Below are positions 15,845 to 51,056 of a stretch of 64,000 nucleotides of DNA, piece by piece (within the stretch, counting starts at the first letter, position 1; each line of letters starts with the position of its first letter). A program made the position numbers and the translations under genes. Location: NCBI GenBank assembly GCA_950106755.1, contig OX467083.1:19897029-19961028 (forward strand), in the 5' to 3' direction. The stretch comes from Climacium dendroides (taxonomy: Eukaryota > Streptophyta > Bryopsida > Hypnales > Climaciaceae). The notes under the pieces are model-generated. The model had not been told where the DNA came from. It did no database searches and was given only the letters and a program-made list of their open reading frames with translations.

Positions 15845-17578
15845 ATGTCGTCGACTAATGCGCCCTATGCAACGTTGAATGATCTGCCCAAATATGAGAA
15901 GCGCGCCGATGTGGTTGGTGCGCCATGGTTCAAGGATCAGGAGACGGTGAAGTGCTCACGTGGTCATGATCCCATTCCTTACATTGCTTGCAACTCCACG
16001 ACGGCTCCATTCGCCACCTTCCACAACATTCCCGAAACATCTGAGGTGCGACCCGTTTATAATTTCTTTGTGATGATTGCGGATGGTGTATCTGCTTTCT
16101 ACACTTTAACTTTTGAACTCAAAATGTATCCATAGCTTCAATTGAGAGAACTGCAGCATGTTTTCCCAGATAAGTTGTCTTGTACATGTGATATACATGT
16201 ATTATAGAATGTCACATGATAATCTTCATGTTCTTCTATATCTGTTAATTTGAATATCGCCACAGCAGGTTTTAGGATAACTCATCATAGCTTCGTAGTA
16301 ATTGTTGTAGATGTTCTATATATATCCTTAGCACATGGTGGTTGAGGTATTGCAGCAAAATGCTGCACCGTTGCCTGAGAGTCCTGTTGAACAGGAACTA
16401 TTCGTTGAACCGCAGCCACACCCCACCAACAGCTCCCAATTGCGATTCCCTCTTGAGCATGTGCATATAGGCACGTCTGATCATCATGAGCATCACATAA
16501 CGCAGGCATGTGTTTCTGCATGGTTGATTTCGAACTGCGCTTCTAGGCTTTGAACCAGAACAGATGAAGAGGCGGAAGTTCAATAATGCATTGCAGGAAC
16601 TGAATTCTGCATAACCTTTTTTTTGCAAAGGGCCGTTCTTAAAGTGCCGGACCATTCCAATTGAAGTGTATGTTAATTGAAGATGTAATGATGCTGACTG
16701 ATGTTTGTGGGATCTGCAGCCGAACATGTCAATGGTGCATCAAGCTCCTTGGGATCGTGATGATGTGCACTACAAGGTAGAAATTATACAATTTTTTTTC
16801 TACTGCTGCTGTAACTTTGGGGTACTCTTTGAATTGCCTGCCTGTTGAGTTTCGTCCACAGTACTATTTCAGTACCTGTTGTGTTCAGTTGGTTTTTAAC
16901 AACGAATGTCATGATGTGTTCTGACACCAAGCAATCACTTTTTTCAGGTTCAACCAAGGTTCCCACATGGGGAGGACGCCCCGCACTACACCTCATCTCA
17001 CGCACCGTACGCAACAGACTCCAAACGTACGTAACAGCCTCACCTTCTTGTGTTGTTTTATTCACCTTGGCTTGTGGTGTCTCGGTTGGCTTCGAAGCAG
17101 GAATATAGGCAAAGGATACTAAGAGCATTCGAGACCTGGTCCCGTCTCCTATTGGCTGACTCCTATTTTCGAACATCTCATCTTTCTTCATACAGACTGG
17201 GTTTGTGTAAGCATGTCTTGGCTAAATATCTGCGCTCACTGATCTTCGAATGGAAATGGGTTCATCTACTATTCCTTCTTTTAGTGGTGTAAAACATCTC
17301 ACTTTGAAATTGCCTACGAAATGTACTCATAGTAATTGTGGTTCGGCTCTGGTACCCATAGATTTCTCCCAGCTCTTTACCGATCACCCCCAAATCACAC
17401 TCCTACTCGTGTTTGAATGCTTCAAGTGATGCAAATTGTCCTATCTTGCAGAGCAAACTCTGAGTATTTCTGCCTCATTGCTAATTGTGATGTATCTCTG
17501 CCATTGTCCAGGTTTTTAAAGGAGTTGGACCCACAGCGCGACACAGTTCCTGGCGATCAAATGGTCGTTGCCCCTTAG
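15845..17578 (+). CDS. Unrecognised 185-residue protein, five coding exons
   Basis: Exons 15845-16045, 16356-16505, 16720-16776, 16948-17030 and 17512-17578 join in frame from an ATG to TAG. I do not recognise the family. The protein is soluble-looking, without signal peptide or membrane segment, and rich in Pro, His and acidic residues, so probably largely disordered. Three short motifs recur: NAPYATLNDLP near residue 5, TAPFATFHNIP near 53 and HAPYATDSKRTF near 158; there is also an APW pair (GAPWFKDQE, QAPWDRDD). The second intron has no good GT donor: the best junction is CAG/GC at 16505-16507, a possible GC-AG intron; using GT at 16511 would add Ala-Cys. The exon pattern and constant phase make it a likely real gene. 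It converges on the PAL-like gene at 18148. Confidence 0.7.
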
Positions 17579-18147
17579 GTCATAGTTTCTTGAAGACAGT
17601 GATGTGTAGAACAATGCGGCTGTATATAAGTCGTGCAAACGAAGTGCTTGCCTACGTTGTAAGGATGGTTTTGTTTTTTCCCTCTAGAAGTACTCTTTAC
17701 TGACAACTCTCATTGTCAGCATTGATTTCCTGAACAGGCATATTGAACATGGATATTGCCAATACACTGAATGTACAGGTCTTCTATTTTCTCATTTGAG
17801 ATCACTCTTACATGAAAATCAATATCATACTCTTGTTTTTATTAAGGATCAAGACTTGAGAAGTCTCTGTGTGAATTTCTTCGCATTATTACAGTGGTCT
17901 TCAACTTGCGTAACCTAAAATGTCCAGGTACTTCAAAAATTCCAAATATTCCAGCCTCTTCTTAAAGTTATGCTGTTACATCAGCAATAACTTATCCAAA
18001 AATGACGATTAAGATTTTCTACTTCCAATTTGCTGTTGGGAGTCGCACTTCGTCACCTTAAGGAGAATGTGGTGGACAATGATGTGGAGTCGCTTTGCTG
18101 CTTTACCCTTCTAGAGAAATAGTGCAGAGACGAATGTTGCAATCCGC
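17579..18147. other. Convergent 3' regions of the 15845 gene and the PAL-like gene
   Basis: About 570 bases separate the two stop codons. The stretch should contain both 3' untranslated regions, possibly overlapping. No further gene is seen and no polyadenylation signal is firm enough to place. Confidence 0.6.
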
Positions 18148-20859
18148 TCAAACTGCAGGAGCGCCATTCCAGCCTTCTAGACACTGAAGCAGAGGAGTGA
18201 CATGTTGACCACCACGAATGGCTCGGTACACTTTCGTAATGTCTTCACCAGGAGTAACGCTTGGGAGTCCACAGATCAACTGGGTGCCAAGCTCGGAACG
18301 GACAAATTGGTAGAGGGGGAACGTTCTGCACTTGGTGATCCTATTTTCCACATTGCTATGGCCATTCGCTTCTCTCACTAGTGGCACATCACTAGTCAAT
18401 CTTCCTTTGAGCTCCTTCTCAAACCCGGAAATCTTACGAAACAACGATGTCCCAACAGAGTTCTCTTCATCCTGCGCATGCTGGAGCAGCACCAGTCGAA
18501 GCTTCTCCATTAGAGGGTACGTTTGGCTGGCCGGATTGTCAATGTATGTGAAAACAGGCTGAATATCCACAACCCGAAGTAGATCAGTCTCAAGCTGGTG
18601 GTTGTCATTCGAATCAAAGAGCGTCTTCTTCGCAACTTCGCTGACGATATTCTTCACGGTGGCTTGCATCGTCTCTTCCAGATGGCGAAGATCAACAGCT
18701 TGGCACAGTGCTAGTAAAAAAGTGGCGCTCATGAACTTCAGAAGCTCAATGGCTTCTTCCGTCTTGCGAGCTGAGATTAAACCAAGGGCGTTCACATCCT
18801 GGTTGTTTTGCTCCGCACTTTGATTGTGCGTGGTGACGGGGTTGGCGAGGTAATTGAGCTCAGAGAGATAGGCCGCCATAGCGATCTCGGCTCCCTTCAT
18901 GCCATAGTCAAGGCTAGGATTTGGTCCTCCGCTAAGATTTGCAGGCAAGCCGTTGTTGTAGAAGCTGTTGACAAGCTCCGAGTACTGTGCAAACATAAGT
19001 TTGCCAATGGCAGCAATAGCGAGGCGCATGTTGTCCATGGACACCCCAATGGGTGTGCCCTGAAAGTTACCTCCACTGATTGCTCTATCTTGGGATACAT
19101 CAATCAGGGGATTATCGTTCACAGAGTTGATCTCTCGCTGGATGGAATGAGTCGCGTTGCGGATCACTTCCAGCTGAGGACCAAGCCACTGAGGTGAAGT
19201 GCGAAGAGCGTACTTTCCAAGCAGGGACGCTTTCGTGAAGGAGCTTCCTTCCAGCACCCATGCTTGGATGGCTGCGGCCTCCATTTGACCAGGGTGCCCC
19301 TTCAGCTTGTGCGTGAGAGGGTTGGTGTAATCAGGATTCGCAAACATGACTTCGCTGAAAAGAGCTGCCAGAACTTCTGCAAGAATGACGAGAATGTTGG
19401 CGTCAAAGCATGCGGTGGCTGCAATGGCTGAGCCGATCGTGGTGCCATTCACCAGAGCTAACCCTTCCTTAGGTTGCAACTCGAAGGGCTTGGGAATGCC
19501 TGCCAGCTTCAGAGCTTCCGGTGCCCAGACCGTCTTCCCCTCTTTCGTCACGGCCGTGGCATTGGGCCGCGCTATGAGCAGACCTGAACACAAACAGACT
19601 CCACGGCTTACCGACAGTGGACCAGCTCCATACACCTTCATTCTCACCACCTGGTCCTAACTTCTCACTTTGGCATAGATTGCACGATATTGAAGTCAGT
19701 GTATAACAGTCAATGATAGCATGGCAAGCGAGCAGGATATAGTAGAATACCAACTTAGAGAAGGTCATAATACAGGGGTTGAATGTAGCTTTGCTATCGA
19801 GTACACCCAACTCTCTCTAATGATGCTGCCAGGGGGGCCACATGTGCTTCAATTAGCAGGTTCACAACTTTGCATGTGGAAGTTATTCAATCAAATGTGT
19901 ACACAACAAGATTCTGAGTCACTATGTACAGGAAGTGTGCAATCACGGAGTTTGTTTATTAGAGAGGCTCCTGTATAATTAGGTTCCCGGATTCACTTGC
20001 GCACGATGATTCTGGACGTTCGTGTGTGCAGGAAGTAAGTGACGTGCGAGTTGAGGGTTATGTATAACCTAACCAGCGATGTAGGACAAGGGAATGAGTT
20101 CGCACACATCACCCCGGAGAGGAAGCTCGGGAGTGACATGGCTGTTGAGAAGCTTTCCCAAGGCTTCCAGAATCTCCCACCGGATGCCAGAGTACCCCTG
20201 CATGAGAGTGTTGATACGAACAAGAATTGCCGCTCGAGTTGTGCTCACAGGGAGCTTGTTGCCCACTTCAATCACTCCCGCATTCAAGAACCTGGAGAGG
20301 AAGTAGGATGTTTTCAATAGATATGAATCCAACTTTTCCACTATGACGTAGTTTGAGTGTCCGACAGAGTCGCAAGTGTGCTGGATAGACTTGAAGTCAT
20401 ATTTTGAGAAGGTCACAATCAATTTACTTGAGTGTAAGTGAAGTTTCTTGTGTCTCCGTTACCAAAATTGGGCCCAACATATTGGCAATTCAACCTTGCA
20501 ACTAACCTGATAAGCTCCTGCTGAAGTTCCAAGCCTTGGTTGGTACGCCGGTGACCCGCAGCTCCGAAGCCAGTGGTGACGCCCTGGATGGCTCTCCCCT
20601 CCGTGACGCCCTGGATCAGCCAGTCCGAGCACTCATCCACTTTTCTCTTCGCAGCTTCCGCATTGAGCTTGAACAACACCTCAGGCCGGCGAGCGATGGC
20701 CGCCACATGTGCCACAGTTAAGTCCTTCCCTTCAACGACCACTTCTTCAGAGTCATAATAGATCTTGACGTAGCCTTTCACCTCATCAAGATGACACCCT
20801 TTCATTGCTTCTGCAGCGCTAGCCCAATTCAAGGGGTCATCTCCACCTTTGCTTGCCAT
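18148..20859 (-). CDS. PAL homologue lacking the MIO triad and catalytic Tyr (predicted pseudoenzyme)
   Basis: Exons in transcript order 20507-20859, 20074-20291 and 18148-19583 give 668 residues from the only ATG ([12 protein letters not shown]) to TGA. Most of the PAL fold is well conserved: GVTTGFGA (93-100), FLNAG (119-123), [17 protein letters not shown] (174-178), [46 protein letters not shown]. Where PAL has Thr-Ile-Thr-Ala-Ser-Gly-Asp after LPLRG, this protein reads Asp-Val-Cys-Glu (179-182): three residues fewer and no Ala-Ser-Gly, so MIO cannot form. The catalytic Tyr before GVTTGFG is Gln92. [10 protein letters not shown] is [17 protein letters not shown] is SGGNFQG, and about 12 residues are missing before [13 protein letters not shown]. 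No stop or frameshift is present. It keeps two of the three introns of the PAL at 31967-35442. Function is unknown; normal deaminase activity is not expected. Confidence 0.9.
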
Positions 20860-21344
20860 GGCAACAGAAATTGTCTGCCTCCCAATGAAACTGCAGGAGT
20901 AGAATTGTTCCAAAACTCTACAAGCAGAAACATGCAAGAGAAACTCTGTGCACTCCCTGAAAGTGTTAACTTGTGACAGTGCAATTCAAGGGGTTTGGCA
21001 TGATGCATCAGTTCTGCAGTAGGGTTTGTGACTGGTGAGAACCCTTTGTCTGAGAAGGAATGGCGGGCGAGAAAAAAAGCACGGATTGTTGACTTCAAAG
21101 GATGGCACACTCCAGTATTGTGTTTCAAGGTATTCTACGTACAATATAACTATTCATGAAGGCCCTGCTTCTATTAATTTTGTTGTTAGGCTTCTAATAA
21201 TTTGAATTCTCGTATCCAATGAATACAGGAATTTTGCAAGGGGAGTTTTAAAGTCTCGACTTCGGTGTTTCGCTGAATCTGCAGTGCAGTGCAGAGACGG
21301 GGTGAATTTGAAAATCATCAGTTTTTCTGACCATGTGAAGCATT
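20860..21344 (-). promoter_or_regulatory. Upstream region of the PAL-like gene
   Basis: The leader lies directly above 20859. The coding frame stays open for 26 codons upstream but contains no ATG, so the start at 20859 is preferred. No TATA or AC element is claimed. Confidence 0.35.
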
Positions 21345-21488
21345 GGCTTAAAAAATTATAAAACAAAATATTGTAGAAGACCTCCCCTTTTCTTGCAAAA
21401 TTTTGAGGATGAATAGTTGCATTTCTATCTTATATAGAGATCCTTTGTCATCCATTGGACGCAAAACATCTGCCTTGACGTTTAAGGG
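21345..21488. mobile_element. Truncated TTAA-family MITE (CCCTTAAACG group)
   Basis: The right end CGTTTAAGGG is followed by TTAA at 21489-21492. The interior shares TTTGAGGATGAATAGTTGC, TATATAGAGATCCTTTGTCA and CATTGGACG with the copies at 55533-56447. The left end is missing or too diverged to place. Confidence 0.55.
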
Positions 21489-24400
21489 TTAAAGCAATTG
21501 ATGAGGGCCATAGCATTTATAGTTGCAAAACTTGGATCCAGTGCTATGCTGTTGATATTGTCTATGATGTAGCCACCCTTATGCCTAGCCATTCATAACA
21601 TTGTTTAGCAATGAAGTAGGGGTCTCTTTTTGATATCCTTGAAAAGAGACCTTCCTACATTGAACAAAATTGTCTTATATGACTCCTCAACCAACCCCAA
21701 TCCTTGAATTAACCAATAGTCCCTCCCAAGCATCTAGCAAAGCATAATACCTTCTAAGCATGGACAAGACCATTGCTTGATTATACAATGTGTATTTTGG
21801 AAGAGCTTAATATTGCTAAATTCTAACAAAGATTTTGACCAAGTAAATACATCTATTTGTGACTAGTGTGCAAATGCAACATATTCTTGCCTAACTTCTT
21901 TTCATGAGAGCCTAGGTCAAATTTGATTACACATAGTTTTAGCACTTTGGAAATCTATGATATTTTCATATAGTGTTTGAAAAATGAATATTAAGAGAAT
22001 GCAAAATCCCTTTAATTATTGACTCTCCAAAAAACTTGATAAAGCCACATAATAGCACAAACCATGTAGATATGCTTATTCATATGATTTTAGATGCAAT
22101 CACCGTAGCTACAAGCCAATAGGAAGTTGAATTCTTAAGATAGATTGATAGGATAGGAATATACATCTAGAGGAATAGAGGATGTATTTATGAAGGTAGT
22201 ATAAACTATGGCTTGAAAAGAATCCAAATTAGTTGATAAGAAACTTGCATCAAAAACAACTTCTAAAAGATTGGGGTACATTTTTGGCATACACTGTAAA
22301 AAAATTCTACTTTTTAGGGCAACAAGAAAAAATGAAAAAAATAAATTTGAAATTCAACCATACACTATTATGGAAATGAGTGGAAAAAATTTAGAAACTT
22401 TGACCTATGTGAATTGAATTATTATAGTATTTGAAAATAAATAAAAAAGTTTTTTTGATCCAACTTGACAAGGTCAATAGATTTCAATTTTTACTAGAGT
22501 GAGATTTTTGCACTATTCATAGATTTGCTTGACAATTCCATCTTATGTGATGTTAATTTCATACCTACCCAATTTCTAAAAGAAGTGGAGGACTTTTGCA
22601 CATATTGTCTAAAGGTGGCCACTTTACTTTAGAAATTTCAAGCATCACAACTCTAAATTTGGACACAAAATCAGAAAAAAAGAATAATATTCCCGCAGAA
22701 GTTAGTATATTTCTACACCTTGCGACAAAATTTCAAGAAGATCCAATCAAAATTGATTTTGTAGGGACCCTACCTAAGTTTTCAAAAGCTTGTTCAACAA
22801 CCACTTGTTTTTTTACATGTTATCTCACAAAGTTCCAAGGTCATTTTAAAATCAAAAACCACATATAACTATCATTTTTGATGCAAACAACAAAAATTTT
22901 AAACATTTATTTCTTTTGCATATCCAATAGTGGATCATGCACTAAACTAGTACAAGAATGTTTGGAAGAAATTTTAAAATTTTTGACTATATCAATCACA
23001 AGATATAATTGTTTTTAAGAAAATAAATTATTTTGTTTTTAGCCAATTTAGATCATATGGCTTTGAATCTTCTTAATTTAAAATTTTTGAATACAAATTG
23101 TGAATTAAAATTTTTTATATTGAAGAATTGAATTGAGAGTTTGGGAATTAAAAAAATATAAAATTTTCATTATTTGAAAAATTGTTAAGTCGAAGTAGGG
23201 ACAAGATAGAAGGAAAAAACAAATATTGTTGATGGCTCTGACGAAAGATGGAATTGAAATACACTAATCCCAACAATGAGATTGTTCTAGAGAACAAACT
23301 AAACCATTTGCAATTTTTCTTTTGAAATATTGTTAAACTTGAGTTAAAAAAACACATATGATAAATAATTTTCTCAAGAATTTGTTAAGATTGCCCACAA
23401 AATAAGAAGCTTTATAACTTTGATATTACTTATCCAAATGGAATGAATCAAATCTTTCACATAAATAAAAATATAATCTATAAGAAATTAATTTTTTAAA
23501 AATTATTTTGAGTTCTCATTTTTTTTTTGTTACTTGTCCTCACTTGTTTTGGGCTTATATGGTATAACTTTTGCTATCGAGCACCAATTGAAATAAAAAT
23601 TATATTTCTAGAAAGCTAATTAGTTTTCTTATCTTAAAAATAAAATTCAAAAAATCTTGTCTAAAATTGAGATGACAAGTACCTATCCAAATCTTCAAGA
23701 GTTTTCTTAGGACTTTAGGATTTAGTGTTGGATTAATCCAACACTTTAGAGGTCTATTGTTGTTAAAGTTGTTCTACATAAGTAGAGATGCCATTATAAT
23801 TATTCAAACCCTTGGGGGGTGTAGTCCATAAAAAAAATAAGGATATAGGTGCGAATCCTAGGTAAATAATGGTATTATTTTTTTATTTATAATTTATTTT
23901 ACACTCTATTATTATGTGATTTTCTAATTTGGCTTATTAAAAAGGGGGCACAAATTAATTGTAATTTCTAGTTGCCATGAATATATCATATGCTATATTA
24001 GATATTATATTTTTTTGCACTACCTACAATTATAGAATTTGATGTAGGATTCATGGTTCACAATTAAGGAGTTTACTCCAACATCTAGAAATTCATATCT
24101 AATTCCTCAAAGCTTTGAAAAATATGAAATGACTTGGGTTAAATGCTACTTTGGCAATTCCATTTATCTTTCAAGGAAAAGTTATTAGAAAATATTTCAA
24201 TAAGTCTAAACTATATATCAAGAAAAATAAAAACACAAGCAAAATCTAAGTTTTAGGAAGACTAGGTGAGTGGAAGCCATCTTTGGCAAAAATGCTTGTT
24301 CCATGCCTATTTTGTAGAGAACAATAATGCTTATAGAAACAACAAAAAAAACTAAAAATTTAGATCATGTAGCCTAAAAACGTTCTCAACTCTTTGTGAG

Positions 24401-31966: not shown

Positions 31967-34900
31967 TCAGCAGCACTGGAATGGTCCAGGTGCGCCTGTC
32001 CATCCCTCGATGCATTGGAACAGCGGCGCCACGTACTTCCCGTCACAAATCGCGTCATACACTTTCTCAATCTCTTGCCCAGGCGAGATTGTCCTCAACC
32101 CAGACAGAAGCTGCGTTTGAAGCTGCTCACGCACAAATTTGTACAGAGGATACGTTCTGCACCCCTCAATTCTGTTGGGAACAGCCGAGATTCCCTTGTT
32201 GTCATAAGCTTCACGCACAAGCGGCACCTCCGTTGTCAACCTCTCCTTGAGCTCCTCCTCGAAGGCAGCAATTCGGTTGAACACTGAAATCTCCGCCACT
32301 TTCTCGTTGTTGGGGTTTTTGAGCGCGTACTGCACGAGCGCTTGTCGCAGCTTCTCCATGAGGGGATACGTTTGGCTTGCCGGATCGTCAATGTAGGTGA
32401 ACACCGGCTGGTTGTCGACGACGCGGAGCAGATCCTTCTCAGCAAACCTTGCGGGGAGGAGGGTTCCATTCGAACCAACGAAGAGCGTCTTCTTCGCCAC
32501 TTGGCTCACAATGTTCTTCACCGTCGCTTGCATTGTTTCCTCGATGTGACGGAGATCAATCGCTTGGCAGAGTCCCACTAAGAAAGTCGAGCTCATGAGC
32601 TTCAGAATCTCAATTGCTTCTTCGGTTTTGCGAGCGGAGACTAAGCCGAGCGAGTTCACGTCCTGGTTGTGCTGCTCCGCGCTTTGGACGTGCGTGGTGA
32701 CGGGATTGGCAAGATAATTAAGTTCTGAAAGGTAGGAAGCCATGGCGATCTCGGCGCCCTTCATGCCATAATCAAGGCTAGGGTTTGGCCCACCGCTGAG
32801 ATTAGAAGGCAACCCGTTGTTATAAAAATCATTCACAAGCTCGCTGAATTGAGCGAACATGAGCTTGCCAATGGCGGCAATGGCAAGACGCATGTTGTCC
32901 ATGGAAACGCCAATGGGCGTCCCCTGGAAGTTGCCACCGTGAAGAGCGCGGTCTCCGGCTGCATCAATCAAAGGGTTGTCGTTCACAGAGTTGATTTCCC
33001 TTTGAATAGAATGTGTAGCATTGCGAATCGCCTCAACCTGTGCAAAACAAACAATACAACGTCAGTCTAATGTCAAATTTCTTCCCATCAATAGCTTCAC
33101 ACAGAATTGAAATCTCCAAACCCAAGAACTATCAAACCTATCAAACTCGCTCTCCAGTTGCAAGAAGCTAGATTACAGTCGCAGAAAAAGCTCTGCTTAA
33201 CCTTAAACTGGGCCTACTGTTCTTGAGCAGTGCTGAGAGCATGTGCGGATTTACTTTCTGCTCAATTTTCTTGATTTAAAGAACACATGCAACGTTCTTC
33301 CCTTACGGTACTCTAATTGTCAATAAAATTTGATCTCCCTGAATTATTGTTCTTCACAGTAGGATCAATCGAGTTCCAAGAAGACTACTGTTAGTTTATC
33401 GTTTGAAGGCACTCCACACATACCTGAGGCCCCAGCCACTGCGGTGAAGTACGAAGCGCATACCGATCCTGCTTGGGCTTCTTCAACGGATCAGTTTCGT
33501 GCAACTTCGCGGCGGCTTTCATGTAGGAACTTCCATCCAGCACCCATTCCATGATGGCCGCTGCCTCCATCTGCCCCGGGTGATGCTTCAGTTTGTGCGT
33601 CAAGGGGTCGGCAAATTCGGGCTTCCCCTGCATCACTTCGCAGAACAATGCGGCGAGGACTTCCGCCAGGACCACCAGGATGTTGGCGTCGAAGCACGCA
33701 GTGGAGGCTAAGGCCGACCCGACTGCAGTCCCGTTCACCATAGCCAGGCCTTCCTTGGGCTGAAGCTCGAACGGCTTCTCTCGCCCGATCATTCGTAAAG
33801 CTTCGGCTGCGGGAACGATCTTCCCGTCGCAGGTCACGGCCTTCGAGTTCGGTCGCGCTGTCAGGAGGCCTGGTGCAGCAACGTAACAACACAGGTATGT
33901 ATATATCAGCTTCTCCACATTCTTTACACTTCTCACATCCATACAAACTGATCGGACCCAGAATTGTATCAATTTATATTTATGGCAGAGGACCGACATG
34001 GGATTATGGGAAGCAGCAATCTGGGACAGGGGAAATCATAAACTCAAACTTGCAACTCGCACACATCACTGCATGCCTGTCGCACACAATTTCCACACAA
34101 TCCTGCACAATTGTGCAGAATAGTGCAGGATTGTGTGGAAATTGTGCAGAATTTCATTGTAAAGGGTGCTGTAGAGCTAGCCCATTCGATCTCTAAGCTT
34201 CCTAAAGGTGCGTATGTAGTGCTTCAGAATATACACTCAAGCTAGAGATCGAGTGTTATAAAATATACGTTGCATTGAAGTTAATTACCTGCGATGTAGG
34301 ACAGAGGGACGAGGTCTCCAGAAGCGGTGATGGTGCCTCGAAGGGGCAGCTGCGGAGTCAGCTGGGCGTTCAAAAGCTTCTCCATCGTCTCCAGAATCTC
34401 CCATCGGATGCCAGAGTAGCCCTGCAACAGCGTGTTGGTGCGGACCAGCATCGCCGCTCGCGTGGTGCTCACGGGGAGTGTGTTGCCGGTGTTCACCACT
34501 CCGGCGTTCAGAAACCTGGCATCAAACGAATATATCAAATGATAAGCAATATTTCTTCTCACATCATGTTGCATGTCTATATACGATGTTGGCAGCCAAC
34601 TTTCCTAATGTAACCTTTCACATTGCCGAGGTAATATGACCATTTAAGCTAAATCTTATGGTTATTTCTAAGGACATTGTTGATGTAAAATTGACAAGTT
34701 TTTAGCCAATTTTGTGAAATTTAAGTACGGAATACTAAAAATTAGCACTGCAATAGATCTGAGGTTTCAAACGAGCCCTCGGGGTATGATGTGCCAGTCT
34801 CCTCAGTTTTCGTCATCTTCACGAAATAATTTGACATTTGAAGGGCCGAAGAAGTCCCAAGTATGTTCCAGATTGACGTAAACTAGCTTTCTCGGACATT

Positions 34901-41929: not shown

Positions 41930-42652
41930 TTACTCCATCTTCTTCTCCTTCTTCCCCCCCTCCGAAGACGACGCATACACAACTATTTGCGAACACACCG
42001 TGCCATGCGTGAGAATCCCTAACAAGGACCCGACCACCATACTCAACGGCGCCTTCTCTTGCACACTCGTGAAAGTCCGCACCACACATCCAGCGAACGA
42101 CAAGAAGCTCGTCACAAGACTCAGCTGCCCCGTGCTCTTGTTCCTGAAGTTCTCGTAGATTTGCGGGAGCCGCGCACTGAAGAAGATGGCGTGCTGGCAA
42201 GCGTACAAAGCCTCAATCAGCTGCGCATCGAGCTTGCCGCCCAGAAGAGTCGGTGCCAGAGCACAGTAGAGCGCGGTCTTCACCCATGTGGACGGACCGA
42301 GGCTATTCGAGTAGTAGTAAATCAAAGCCAAGCACGCAATGCTCTGCGCCAGGATGAACACGAGCTCCCCGTAGGCGGAGAAGGGAAGCTGCTTGAAAAG
42401 GCAGTAGGCCAAGGCGATGGTGAACCCAGCGACTTCGAGCTCGAAGGAAGGGATGCTCAAACCCTTGGTGCTCTTGTTCTTGAGGATGAGGTAAATCTGG
42501 GGGAGCTTGAGGAAGACGGAGGCGACGATGATGGCGTAGCCTAAGAACTTGGAGAGCAAGGGGAGGATGCAGTCTTGCGAGGGAAGTTCGTAATTCTCGA
42601 CGGATTGCATCAGACAGGAGATGTCCATGCCGGCTAAGGTGGAGGACTTCAT
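41930..42652 (-). CDS. MPDU1: Mannose-P-dolichol utilization defect 1 protein (PQ-loop family)
   Basis: A single-exon frame of 240 residues, the usual length of plant MPDU1 homologues. In animals the family is needed for use of dolichol-phosphate mannose and glucose in N-glycan and GPI assembly at the ER; its exact activity is unsettled. Two PQ-loop motifs are clear: KLPQIYLILKNKSTKGLS (PQ at 51-52) and RLPQIYENFRNKSTGQLS (PQ at 163-164). Hydrophobic segments fit a seven-helix membrane protein. The last four residues are KKME, a classic KKxx ER-retrieval signal, which agrees with an ER location. AAACCCTAA (a telo-box) sits about 17 bases above the ATG. Confidence 0.95.
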   Translation of the reverse strand: MKSSTLAGMDISCLMQSVENYELPSQDCILPLLSKFLGYAIIVASVFLKLPQIYLILKNKSTKGLSIPSFELEVAGFTIALAYCLFKQLPFSAYGELVFILAQSIACLALIYYYSNSLGPSTWVKTALYCALAPTLLGGKLDAQLIEALYACQHAIFFSARLPQIYENFRNKSTGQLSLVTSFLSFAGCVVRTFTSVQEKAPLSMVVGSLLGILTHGTVCSQIVVYASSSEGGKKEKKME

Positions 42653-48950: not shown

Positions 48951-50522
48951 CACAAGCGGCACAACTCAAACACAACTAGGGTTGGAAGTTCCCCGATAAA
49001 TTTCTTCAGGTCAGTTTCTTCACCCCCGTTTTTGGTATGCATTGGACCAGATTTTGCTACCCATACCAAAAATATTTATTGAAAAATATTTCCAGGGGGT
49101 GAAGACTCCCCAAATTGCAATTAATTCTTACAGTCCAGACTCCAGGGCCAACGAAAGAAATGCTAATAAATGCTCCGTATACATTTATGCCGCCACTTGG
49201 CAATCGGGTACGTGGCGCTTTCTGCCACATGTCCCGTTTCCATTCGCCACACCCAAGTAACCACATCGTGATCTTGTTCGTCGGAGTTCGGCGAATTTGA
49301 ATGTTCACGGTGCCTCCTTTAATTTCTCCAGTGATTGCGAAGGTGGGTCGTCTTCATTTTCAGATTTTCACAGCGTAACGACTCGAGAAGTTATTCGATC
49401 CATAGTCGAAATTTGTGGTGAGTAGTAAGTACGCTGGTATTTGCTTTGAATTTGAGTGTTTTCTTAGGGTTTATGGGGCGTGAGTATTAGGTGTTCGCGA
49501 CTGAGTGCATTCTTAAGATTCGCAATGTAGACACGAAGAAATTACGTCTTTCCTTAGTAATTGTCATGACTTTCTTATCCTGATGAGTTTCAGTACATTC
49601 AGCTGAATTTGATTTGGGTTGAGATGACGCCATAGCTGTAAACCTATCCCTCTGCTTTGAACGAAATATGACCGAGTTTGAAGTCTCTATAGGGTAGAGG
49701 ATACTCTTTCCGTAACTACTAATTATTTTAACGAGTGCGGTATGTAGAAGTTTCTTTCGTTTGAAGATTACTTTAGAGTTGTGAGAGTTAGATTTGGGTG
49801 CAAAAGAGTCAACCTCTGTTTTGATCAAATTTTGAACACCGTATGATTTTTTCTGTTAAAAACATTCGAAGTGGGAGGTTGTAGACCACAATTGAAGAGA
49901 TAATCGACAACCCCATTTCCATTCAAAGAGCTGTGGTTATAGACGTACAGTCAATTCAGCTTACATCAGTTGCTAATTGCTGACTTTTGATTGTATGAGT
50001 TGCATTAGTGACATTTGCAACCACCCTAACATTGCCATCCTAAGTCTCAGGCAATATGTACATAATGATGGAATCGGGTGTAGATAATCTAAACACGTTC
50101 AATCTTACAACAATACTTTGAACCTTCATAAACTTTTCATGTGGTATCCAAATAACGAAATCTCTCGTGCATTGGAACCTTTTTCCCATTTGCTAATAAG
50201 AATATATTAGAAATTTTTGCCAGTGCTACTAGTGACTTTTTCTGTTGTCCCTACCTTACCTAAGTGACCTTGAAATCAGTTGCGTCGTCTCAAATCACGA
50301 GTAACATTCTTCCATCTGCTGGACTCTTGCAATTCAACTAATATCTTGGGATTGTTAAATTTCACGACTAGCATTCTTCCATCTTCTGGACGTTTCCAAT
50401 TCAGATAATCTCTCTATAGGGATTGTTAAATTTCACCACTAACATTCTTCTCTGTTGGAATTCAGATTATCTCTAGGGATTGTTACCATCAGCTTCCAGA
50501 ATTGCTAGGCCAATCCAGCGCC
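48951..50522. other. Upstream region of the dirigent gene, with dispersed repeats
   Basis: About 49866-49975 resembles 7508-7615 (AAGTGGGAGGTTGTAGACCA, then AATTGAAG and CATTTCC). A dispersed repeat copy is at about 50035-50220. Closer to the gene, CTGGAC-TT-CAATTCA phrases recur near 50315, 50385 and 50450. No gene is recognised at 48951-50522 although 49020-49500 is less AT-rich. Confidence 0.45.
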
Positions 50523-51056
50523 ATGTCAAACCAGCAAGTCGGTGCAGTGGCCCTGGTCGCCCTGGCTTCCTGGGCCTTAGCCAAGCTCGGCTACTCTTTA
50601 ATCTCCGCTCCCAAACAGTCCAACCTCACTCTCTACATCCACGAGTTACGCGCCCCTCCCGACTCCACCGTCCTGGCAGCAGCCGGCACGGGGCAAAACG
50701 ACTTCACCCAGATCGGCTTCGGGAGCTTCCTGGTGTTCGACAACGAAGTCAGAGACAGCCCTGACCGCAACAACAGCGCCTTGCTGGGTCGAGAACGAGG
50801 CTACGGTCCCATCAGTGACATACAGGGCAAGCAGGGCATTCAGTTGATGTCCACTTTGGTGTTTGGCAGAGGCTCCAGCTACCATGGGAGCCTCACTTTG
50901 CAAGGAAACGTGGGAGGCGCATCTCCTACGACGGAGCTGGCTGTTTTGTCTGGGACAGAGGATTTCCGAGGGGCCAGAGGGTATGCCGTGGTGGAAACAG
51001 TGAAGAGTGGGCCTCTGGCGGTGGTGTTTCGGTGGAATATCTACTTGTCTTACTAG
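50523..51056 (+). CDS. Dirigent protein
   Basis: Intronless frame of 177 residues starting at the first ATG (MSNQQVGAVAL); the frame above opens only at TTG. A hydrophobic segment at about residues 6-28 (VGAVALVALASWALAK) should be a signal peptide or anchor. The dirigent domain follows: NLTLYIHEL, GFGSFLVFDNEVRDSPDRN, ALLGRERGYGPISD, LMSTLVFGRGSSYHGSLTLQ, TTELAVLSGTEDFRGARGYA and the closing AVVFRWNIYLSY. Dirigent proteins are secreted eight-stranded beta-barrels that steer stereospecific coupling of phenoxy radicals (lignans) or take part in cell-wall polymer formation; they bind no cofactor. Which phenol this one handles cannot be read from sequence. Part of its 3' end is duplicated downstream. 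Confidence 0.93.
   Translation: MSNQQVGAVALVALASWALAKLGYSLISAPKQSNLTLYIHELRAPPDSTVLAAAGTGQNDFTQIGFGSFLVFDNEVRDSPDRNNSALLGRERGYGPISDIQGKQGIQLMSTLVFGRGSSYHGSLTLQGNVGGASPTTELAVLSGTEDFRGARGYAVVETVKSGPLAVVFRWNIYLSY

Follow-up and report, generated by a model that had tools for sequence, protein, structure and literature searches.

Inherited loss of two catalytic elements in a phenylalanine ammonia-lyase paralogue of the moss Climacium dendroides

Two elements are central to catalysis by phenylalanine ammonia-lyase (PAL): the MIO group, formed from a triad of residues, and the inner-loop tyrosine at position 110 (numbering of the parsley enzyme). A protein with neither is incapable of ammonia-lyase chemistry. 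The core domain of the enzyme is taken here to carry most of the contacts within the PAL tetramer. Plant PALs assemble as homo- or heterotetramers (PMC4560161), and three subunits contribute to each active site (PMC9002059). Tyr110 has been called necessary (PMC9002059) and has been assigned a role in proton transfer (PMC11427684), and a Tyr110Phe variant is given as about 75,000-fold less active, a value taken from earlier work (PMC4560161).

Plant PALs lacking one or another of these elements have been noted before. PtrPAL5 of poplar has Tyr110His (PMC4560161), and four gene models, StPAL3 and StPAL7 of potato and TaPAL16 and TaPAL28 of wheat, are described as without Ala-Ser-Gly or the MIO domain (PMC9224352, PMC9561908), so that single defective PALs are already known. 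StPAL3 is reported to be expressed and responsive to stress, and the potato survey is inconsistent in the number of its 14 PALs to which it ascribes a MIO domain (PMC9224352, PMC9561908). In another enzyme family, the TSB-like proteins of core eudicots are dead but widely kept biosynthetic paralogues that act on an active partner (PMC12727527, whose reference list also names PDX1.2).

The locus considered here lies in a stretch of 64,000 nucleotides from Climacium dendroides, referred to below as the window, with positions counted from its first letter. It contains two PAL homologues, gene A and, 11 kb away, gene B. Two other open reading frames of the window encode what I presume to be a dirigent protein-like product (50502-51056, plus strand) and a mannose-P-dolichol-utilisation (MPDU1/PQ-loop) protein-like product (41930-42652, minus strand). 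The features needed for the argument are as follows.

20507..20859, minus strand: gene A exon 1, residues 1-118, with Gln92 in the place of the catalytic Tyr110
20584..20586, minus strand: codon of Gln92, which corresponds to Tyr110 of parsley PAL in the alignment to PcPAL
20074..20291, minus strand: gene A exon 2, which contains the lesion
20099..20110, minus strand: codons for Asp-Val-Cys-Glu replacing Thr-Ile-Thr-Ala-Ser-Gly-Asp, with the MIO triad lost and a net change of minus three residues
18148..19583, minus strand: gene A exon 3, stop codon included, encoding the core, shielding and C-terminal domains
19213..19227, minus strand: shortened outer loop SLLGK of gene A, about 12 residues shorter than in parsley PAL and gene B, also found in P0062
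31967..35442, minus strand: gene B, a canonical PAL of four exons and 730 amino acids, with Tyr110 and TITASGD intact
34057..34069, minus strand: 13-mer within intron 2 of gene B that matches the gene A lesion exactly, a possible filler template or chance

Gene A encodes 668 amino acids and a stop codon in three exons, with GT-AG introns and an intact frame. It belongs over its full length to the aromatic amino acid lyase sequence family (PF00221 profile score of 440.6 against a cut-off of 27.3), and it scores 858.4 bits with TIGR01226 (cut-off 519.15). The nearest named PALs among the best 120 of 2047 homologues come from Ceratodon, Pohlia, Physcomitrium and Sphagnum. Like plant PAL (parsley PAL1, structure 1w27), gene A has the MIO, core, shielding and C-terminal regions of a full-length homologue; unlike it, gene A lacks the MIO triad and Tyr110 and has a shortened outer loop. 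LPLRG at residues 174-178 is followed by DVCE at 179-182, with neither Ala-Ser-Gly nor Ser-Ser-Gly, and then by LIPLSYIAG. A first-pass annotation of the window had described this junction and the neighbouring PAL with TITASGD, which is gene B; reconstruction of the exons bore out the description, coordinates and 668 codons included.

Most residues of the pocket are kept. Gene A has Asn260, Tyr351, Arg354, Phe400, Glu484 and Gln488, which I take to be suitable test residues for the pocket and carboxylate site of a functional PAL, and also Leu138, Leu256, Asn384 and Lys456. The gap in the outer loop falls just before Tyr351, and beside it Gln348 is replaced by Leu, in an alignment that is uncertain at that place. 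Four Sphagnum-type PALs (P0061, P0063, P0065 and P0068) likewise have Leu at 348 and, despite their divergence, keep Tyr110 and Ala-Ser-Gly. The outer loop is of full length in the Tyr110-less homologues P0001 and P0002, and its shortening is common to gene A and P0062, a record that starts just before exon 3 and so covers neither the lesion nor the site of Tyr110.

The pocket bears on the idea that gene A has a role of its own, one that needs the PAL fold and a ligand pocket but not MIO chemistry, for example the binding and reporting of phenylalanine or a phenylpropanoid by a homotetramer rather than in partnership with PALs. Retention of the ten pocket residues besides Tyr110 and the triad is what such a role would call for, but the shortened outer loop and the uncertain Leu at 348 fit it poorly. 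Moreover, residue 110 varies among the relatives of gene A (Gln, Asn, Leu, Pro), and there is therefore no hint of new conserved chemistry at that position. I consider a role of this kind unlikely, though it is the chief rival of the reading preferred below.

How unusual the loss of the triad is can be judged from the best 120 of 2047 homologues. A string search found ASG in 112 of them (in seven, P0072, P0090, P0094, P0097, P0106, P0108 and P0115, by string only, the motif pattern being unmatched) and SSG in 7, the remaining one, P0062, being without that exon. The carriers of Ser-Ser-Gly within this set (P0009, P0010, P0049, P0074, P0098, P0102 and P0113) include some Sphagnum and gymnosperm PALs. 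The plant MIO triad is thus not strictly Ala-Ser-Gly, and of the first-pass statement that MIO arises from that triad only, the loss in gene A stands and the strictness of the triad does not.

An error of assembly, or a triad restored by an alternative exon, was one alternative. The assembly sequence is the sole evidence for the lesion in gene A itself. However, a six-frame string search of positions 17001-24000 (ASGD, TASG, TITAS and similar strings) found no triad in the sense of gene A, the one match to ASGD lying on the plus strand, antisense to exon 1. The same DVCE occurs in an independent and diverged sequence. A search with exon 2 gave 15 matches, of which 13 have Ala-Ser-Gly or Ser-Ser-Gly intact, one (P0134) diverges upstream of the triad, and one (P0121) carries DVCE. 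P0121 comes from public read assemblies (three member sequences, a 3316 bp contig); it is 88% identical to gene A over 68 residues and continues into the presumed intron. A match to exon 1, P0136, is identical to gene A at 91/111 residues and has Gln at 110. The two are treated here as one contig, on the assumption that their common length of 3316 bp and common cluster size of 3 identify them as such. Since DVCE is found in an independent and diverged genomic fragment, the lesion can be put down neither to misassembly nor to a recent event, and it is older than the divergence of gene A from this relative, whether the latter represents another species or a paralogue. I regard an artefact or a rescuing exon as scarcely credible.

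The earlier annotation overlooked a second loss, which preceded that of the triad. Gln92 of gene A aligns with the inner-loop tyrosine, and among gene A, gene B, parsley PAL and the best 120 of 2047 homologues, Tyr110 is absent only from gene A, P0001 (Ceratodon, Leu) and P0002 (Pro), P0062 having no data at the site and P0094 being misaligned. A search with exon 1 found further cases: 8/15 matches have the tyrosine and 7/15 do not, the latter being P0136 (Gln), P0137 and P0138 (Asn), P0139 (Leu) and P0140, P0141 and P0144 (Pro). P0141, from a cluster of 16 members, and P0144 form a further pair of Tyr-less PALs. P0001, a Ceratodon gene model, and P0002 keep TITASGD in spite of the loss of tyrosine, from which it follows that tyrosine was lost before the triad. 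P0002 reads through both intron sites without interruption in a contig of 2470 bp, so that it probably represents a transcribed Tyr-less relative. Both DVCE sequences, gene A and P0121, are genomic, and the full-length search gave no spliced DVCE protein among the best 120 of 2047; a search of viral_contigs and genome_contigs with exon 3 confirmed no relative.

To relate the two losses, a tree was built from 41 rows that I picked from the matches, with the columns for Tyr110 and the triad masked; seven of the rows are fragments that span 17-25% of the columns, which limits their placement, and the MIO state was scored only for rows that cover that exon. Nine rows form a core Tyr-less clade (support 100/99), and addition of P0141 and P0144 gives a group of 11 rows (support 91/94, not starred). 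Gene A, P0062 and the combined P0136_P0121 group together (support 96/87). By parsimony there is one change for Tyr and one for MIO, the latter nested within the former. A count of changes does not by itself distinguish gain from loss; Tyr and the triad are taken as ancestral because other land-plant PALs have them. As befits a pseudoenzyme, then, gene A has losses of catalytic residues that are common to its relatives by descent, one change each. The clade has so far been met only among moss-type sequences.

As to the origin of the lesion, its 13 bases GTGATGTGTGCGA at 20100-20112 have one other copy in the window, on the same strand in intron 2 of gene B. Matches of 13 or longer arose by chance in 1/100 shuffled windows, 0/2000 shuffled introns and 4/500 random exon 18-mers. 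This is suggestive of DVCE as filler DNA copied from gene B intron 2 during repair, with chance as the alternative, but the observation is post hoc and I place no weight on it.

From established knowledge, the product of gene A should be without ammonia-lyase activity. The first-pass conclusion that it cannot be a normal PAL is strengthened by the loss of Tyr110 and the shortened outer loop. It might still be argued that Val-Cys-Glu serves as an atypical triad for the prosthetic group, Cys substituting for Ser, and that the protein remains an electrophilic enzyme, an idea based on the known chemistry of the family. Cys is kept in both carriers of DVCE, but the loop is three residues shorter and without Gly, and Tyr110 is gone; I judge such an enzyme very improbable.

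If gene A is not a PAL in the usual sense, the question becomes whether it has been kept. The ratio dN/dS between genes A and B (NG86: dN 0.208, dS 1.868) was set aside, because dS is near saturation and most of the time it represents predates the lesion. An open reading frame was considered as proof of selection and rejected as too weak, since the probability of no stop under neutrality is 0.11-0.22 (0.22 and 0.11 for two regions, both copies); for the whole gene A branch, with 43 changes, it is 0.14. The comparisons that follow rest instead on where the substitutions fall relative to family-invariant columns, defined as those with an identity of 99% or more across 118 canonical PALs.

Gene A and its DVCE relative (P0136/P0121) differ at 1/59 invariant and 27/114 other positions (p=6e-5, lesion columns excluded). 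With exon 1 alone (gene A and P0136) the figures are 1/32 and 19/79 (p=0.012), and with exon 2 alone they are 0/27 and 8/35 (p=0.008), one of the exon-2 differences from P0121 possibly being a start codon read as Met. Gene conversion of exon 2 may have carried the lesion from one paralogue to another; exon 2 taken by itself nonetheless retains the pattern. Between gene A and P0062, differences affect 7/181 invariant and 39/295 other columns (p=7e-4). Neutral simulations (500 runs each, using 246 and 244 invariant columns under slightly different definitions) gave means of 10.2 and 17.4 changes at invariant columns and minima of 4 and 10, as compared to the 1 observed for the DVCE relative and the 7 for P0062. 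In addition, the differences between gene A and P0062 spare the core domain (14/254) relative to the shielding domain (21/109; p=1e-4, with domain borders from PMC4560161, shifted by about 3 residues). At the level of the protein, these tests point to purifying selection after the loss, and the substitution patterns together argue against neutral drift since the lesion. They also support the first-pass suggestion that the protein may be kept for another role, as does the occurrence of DVCE in a separate relative, and they disfavour the recent pseudogene that had been named as its alternative, as does the divergence of P0121.

The constraint nonetheless looks weaker than in true PALs, and it is here that slow decay has to be weighed: function as PAL would have been lost long ago in the clade, and gene A would be drifting, partly constrained or recently freed. 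Gene A and P0001 have 41 core and 28 shielding differences, and P0001 and P0002 have 38 and 31, as compared to 7 and 27 in the canonical pair B-P0004, which I picked for the purpose (p=3e-4 and 0.001, respectively); 21 canonical pairs pooled differ at 3.1% of core and 18.3% of shielding positions. The core domain thus looks relaxed in the Tyr-less clade, but the sign is not firm, because the canonical pair B-P0003 (10/266 core, 7/121 shielding) has a ratio resembling that of the clade. A relaxed core would also tell against a strict scaffold role for gene A, given the tetramer contacts ascribed to this domain. Similarly, gene A departs from invariant columns at 20/244, P0001 at 15, P0002 at 10 and P0062 at 18/186, as compared to a median of 0 in the 118 canonical PALs, the close relatives of each being set aside for its own test; the maximum, however, is 16/260, and the four Sphagnum-type PALs named above, with their active sites intact, reach 14-16/260. 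The variable residue 110 and the failure of the full-length search (best 120 of 2047) to yield a DVCE transcript also accord with decay. What speaks against it is that substitutions between the two DVCE carriers avoid family-invariant sites, and that gene A, the two exon fragments known from the DVCE relative and P0062 exon 3 all have open frames, although public ORFs are selected for openness. Decay seems to me improbable and ranks just behind a role of its own.

The reading I prefer, to which I would give an even chance, is that gene A is a pseudoenzyme, a PAL paralogue kept after the loss of its catalytic ability and probably serving as a non-catalytic partner in mixed PAL tetramers. On this reading the clade lost the catalytic Tyr110 of the inner loop in a first step; in a second, the branch leading to gene A and P0121 exchanged the MIO-forming triad for Asp-Val-Cys-Glu, and gene A and P0062 have in addition a shortened outer loop in common. 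The protein presumably keeps the fold of a PAL subunit and would most likely join active subunits in mixed tetramers, adjusting how abundant, stable or active these are, in the manner of TSB-like with its partner. A larger role, in which an ancient moss clade of PAL pseudoenzymes is built into PAL tetramers as regulatory subunits and controls entry to phenolic metabolism, is a tentative and rather doubtful extension.

The comparison with described systems can now be made more closely. Like gene A, PtrPAL5 has its catalytic Tyr110 replaced and adjoins another PAL; it has His at the site, preceded by a deletion of four residues, and is a tandem duplicate (PMC4560161). It differs in that the account consulted names no loss of the triad and presents a fairly recent copy without a willow orthologue and with no clade (PMC4560161). 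The potato and wheat cases, as far as the surveys describe them, are single models without a MIO domain, whereas gene A has a local replacement common to a relative. TSB-like resembles what is proposed for gene A as a dead, widely kept paralogue acting on an active partner, but it belongs to another enzyme family, and its action on the partner has been demonstrated, whereas that of gene A is deduced (PMC12727527). The earlier remark that no plant PAL of this kind had been described therefore fails for single defective PALs, those of potato, wheat and poplar, and holds for the clade: a conserved moss PAL clade without Tyr110 or MIO was not found in the literature searched, whose coverage leaves out most subscription journals, and one with nested loss of the two appears undescribed there.

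PAL, the gateway to the phenolic compounds of land plants, is as a rule annotated from its sequence. The clade scores well as PAL without having what PAL chemistry needs, and therefore counts of the expanded PAL families of mosses may include proteins that are not enzymes. A dead paralogue beside a live PAL would offer a handle on whether non-catalytic subunits partly set the flux through PAL in mosses.
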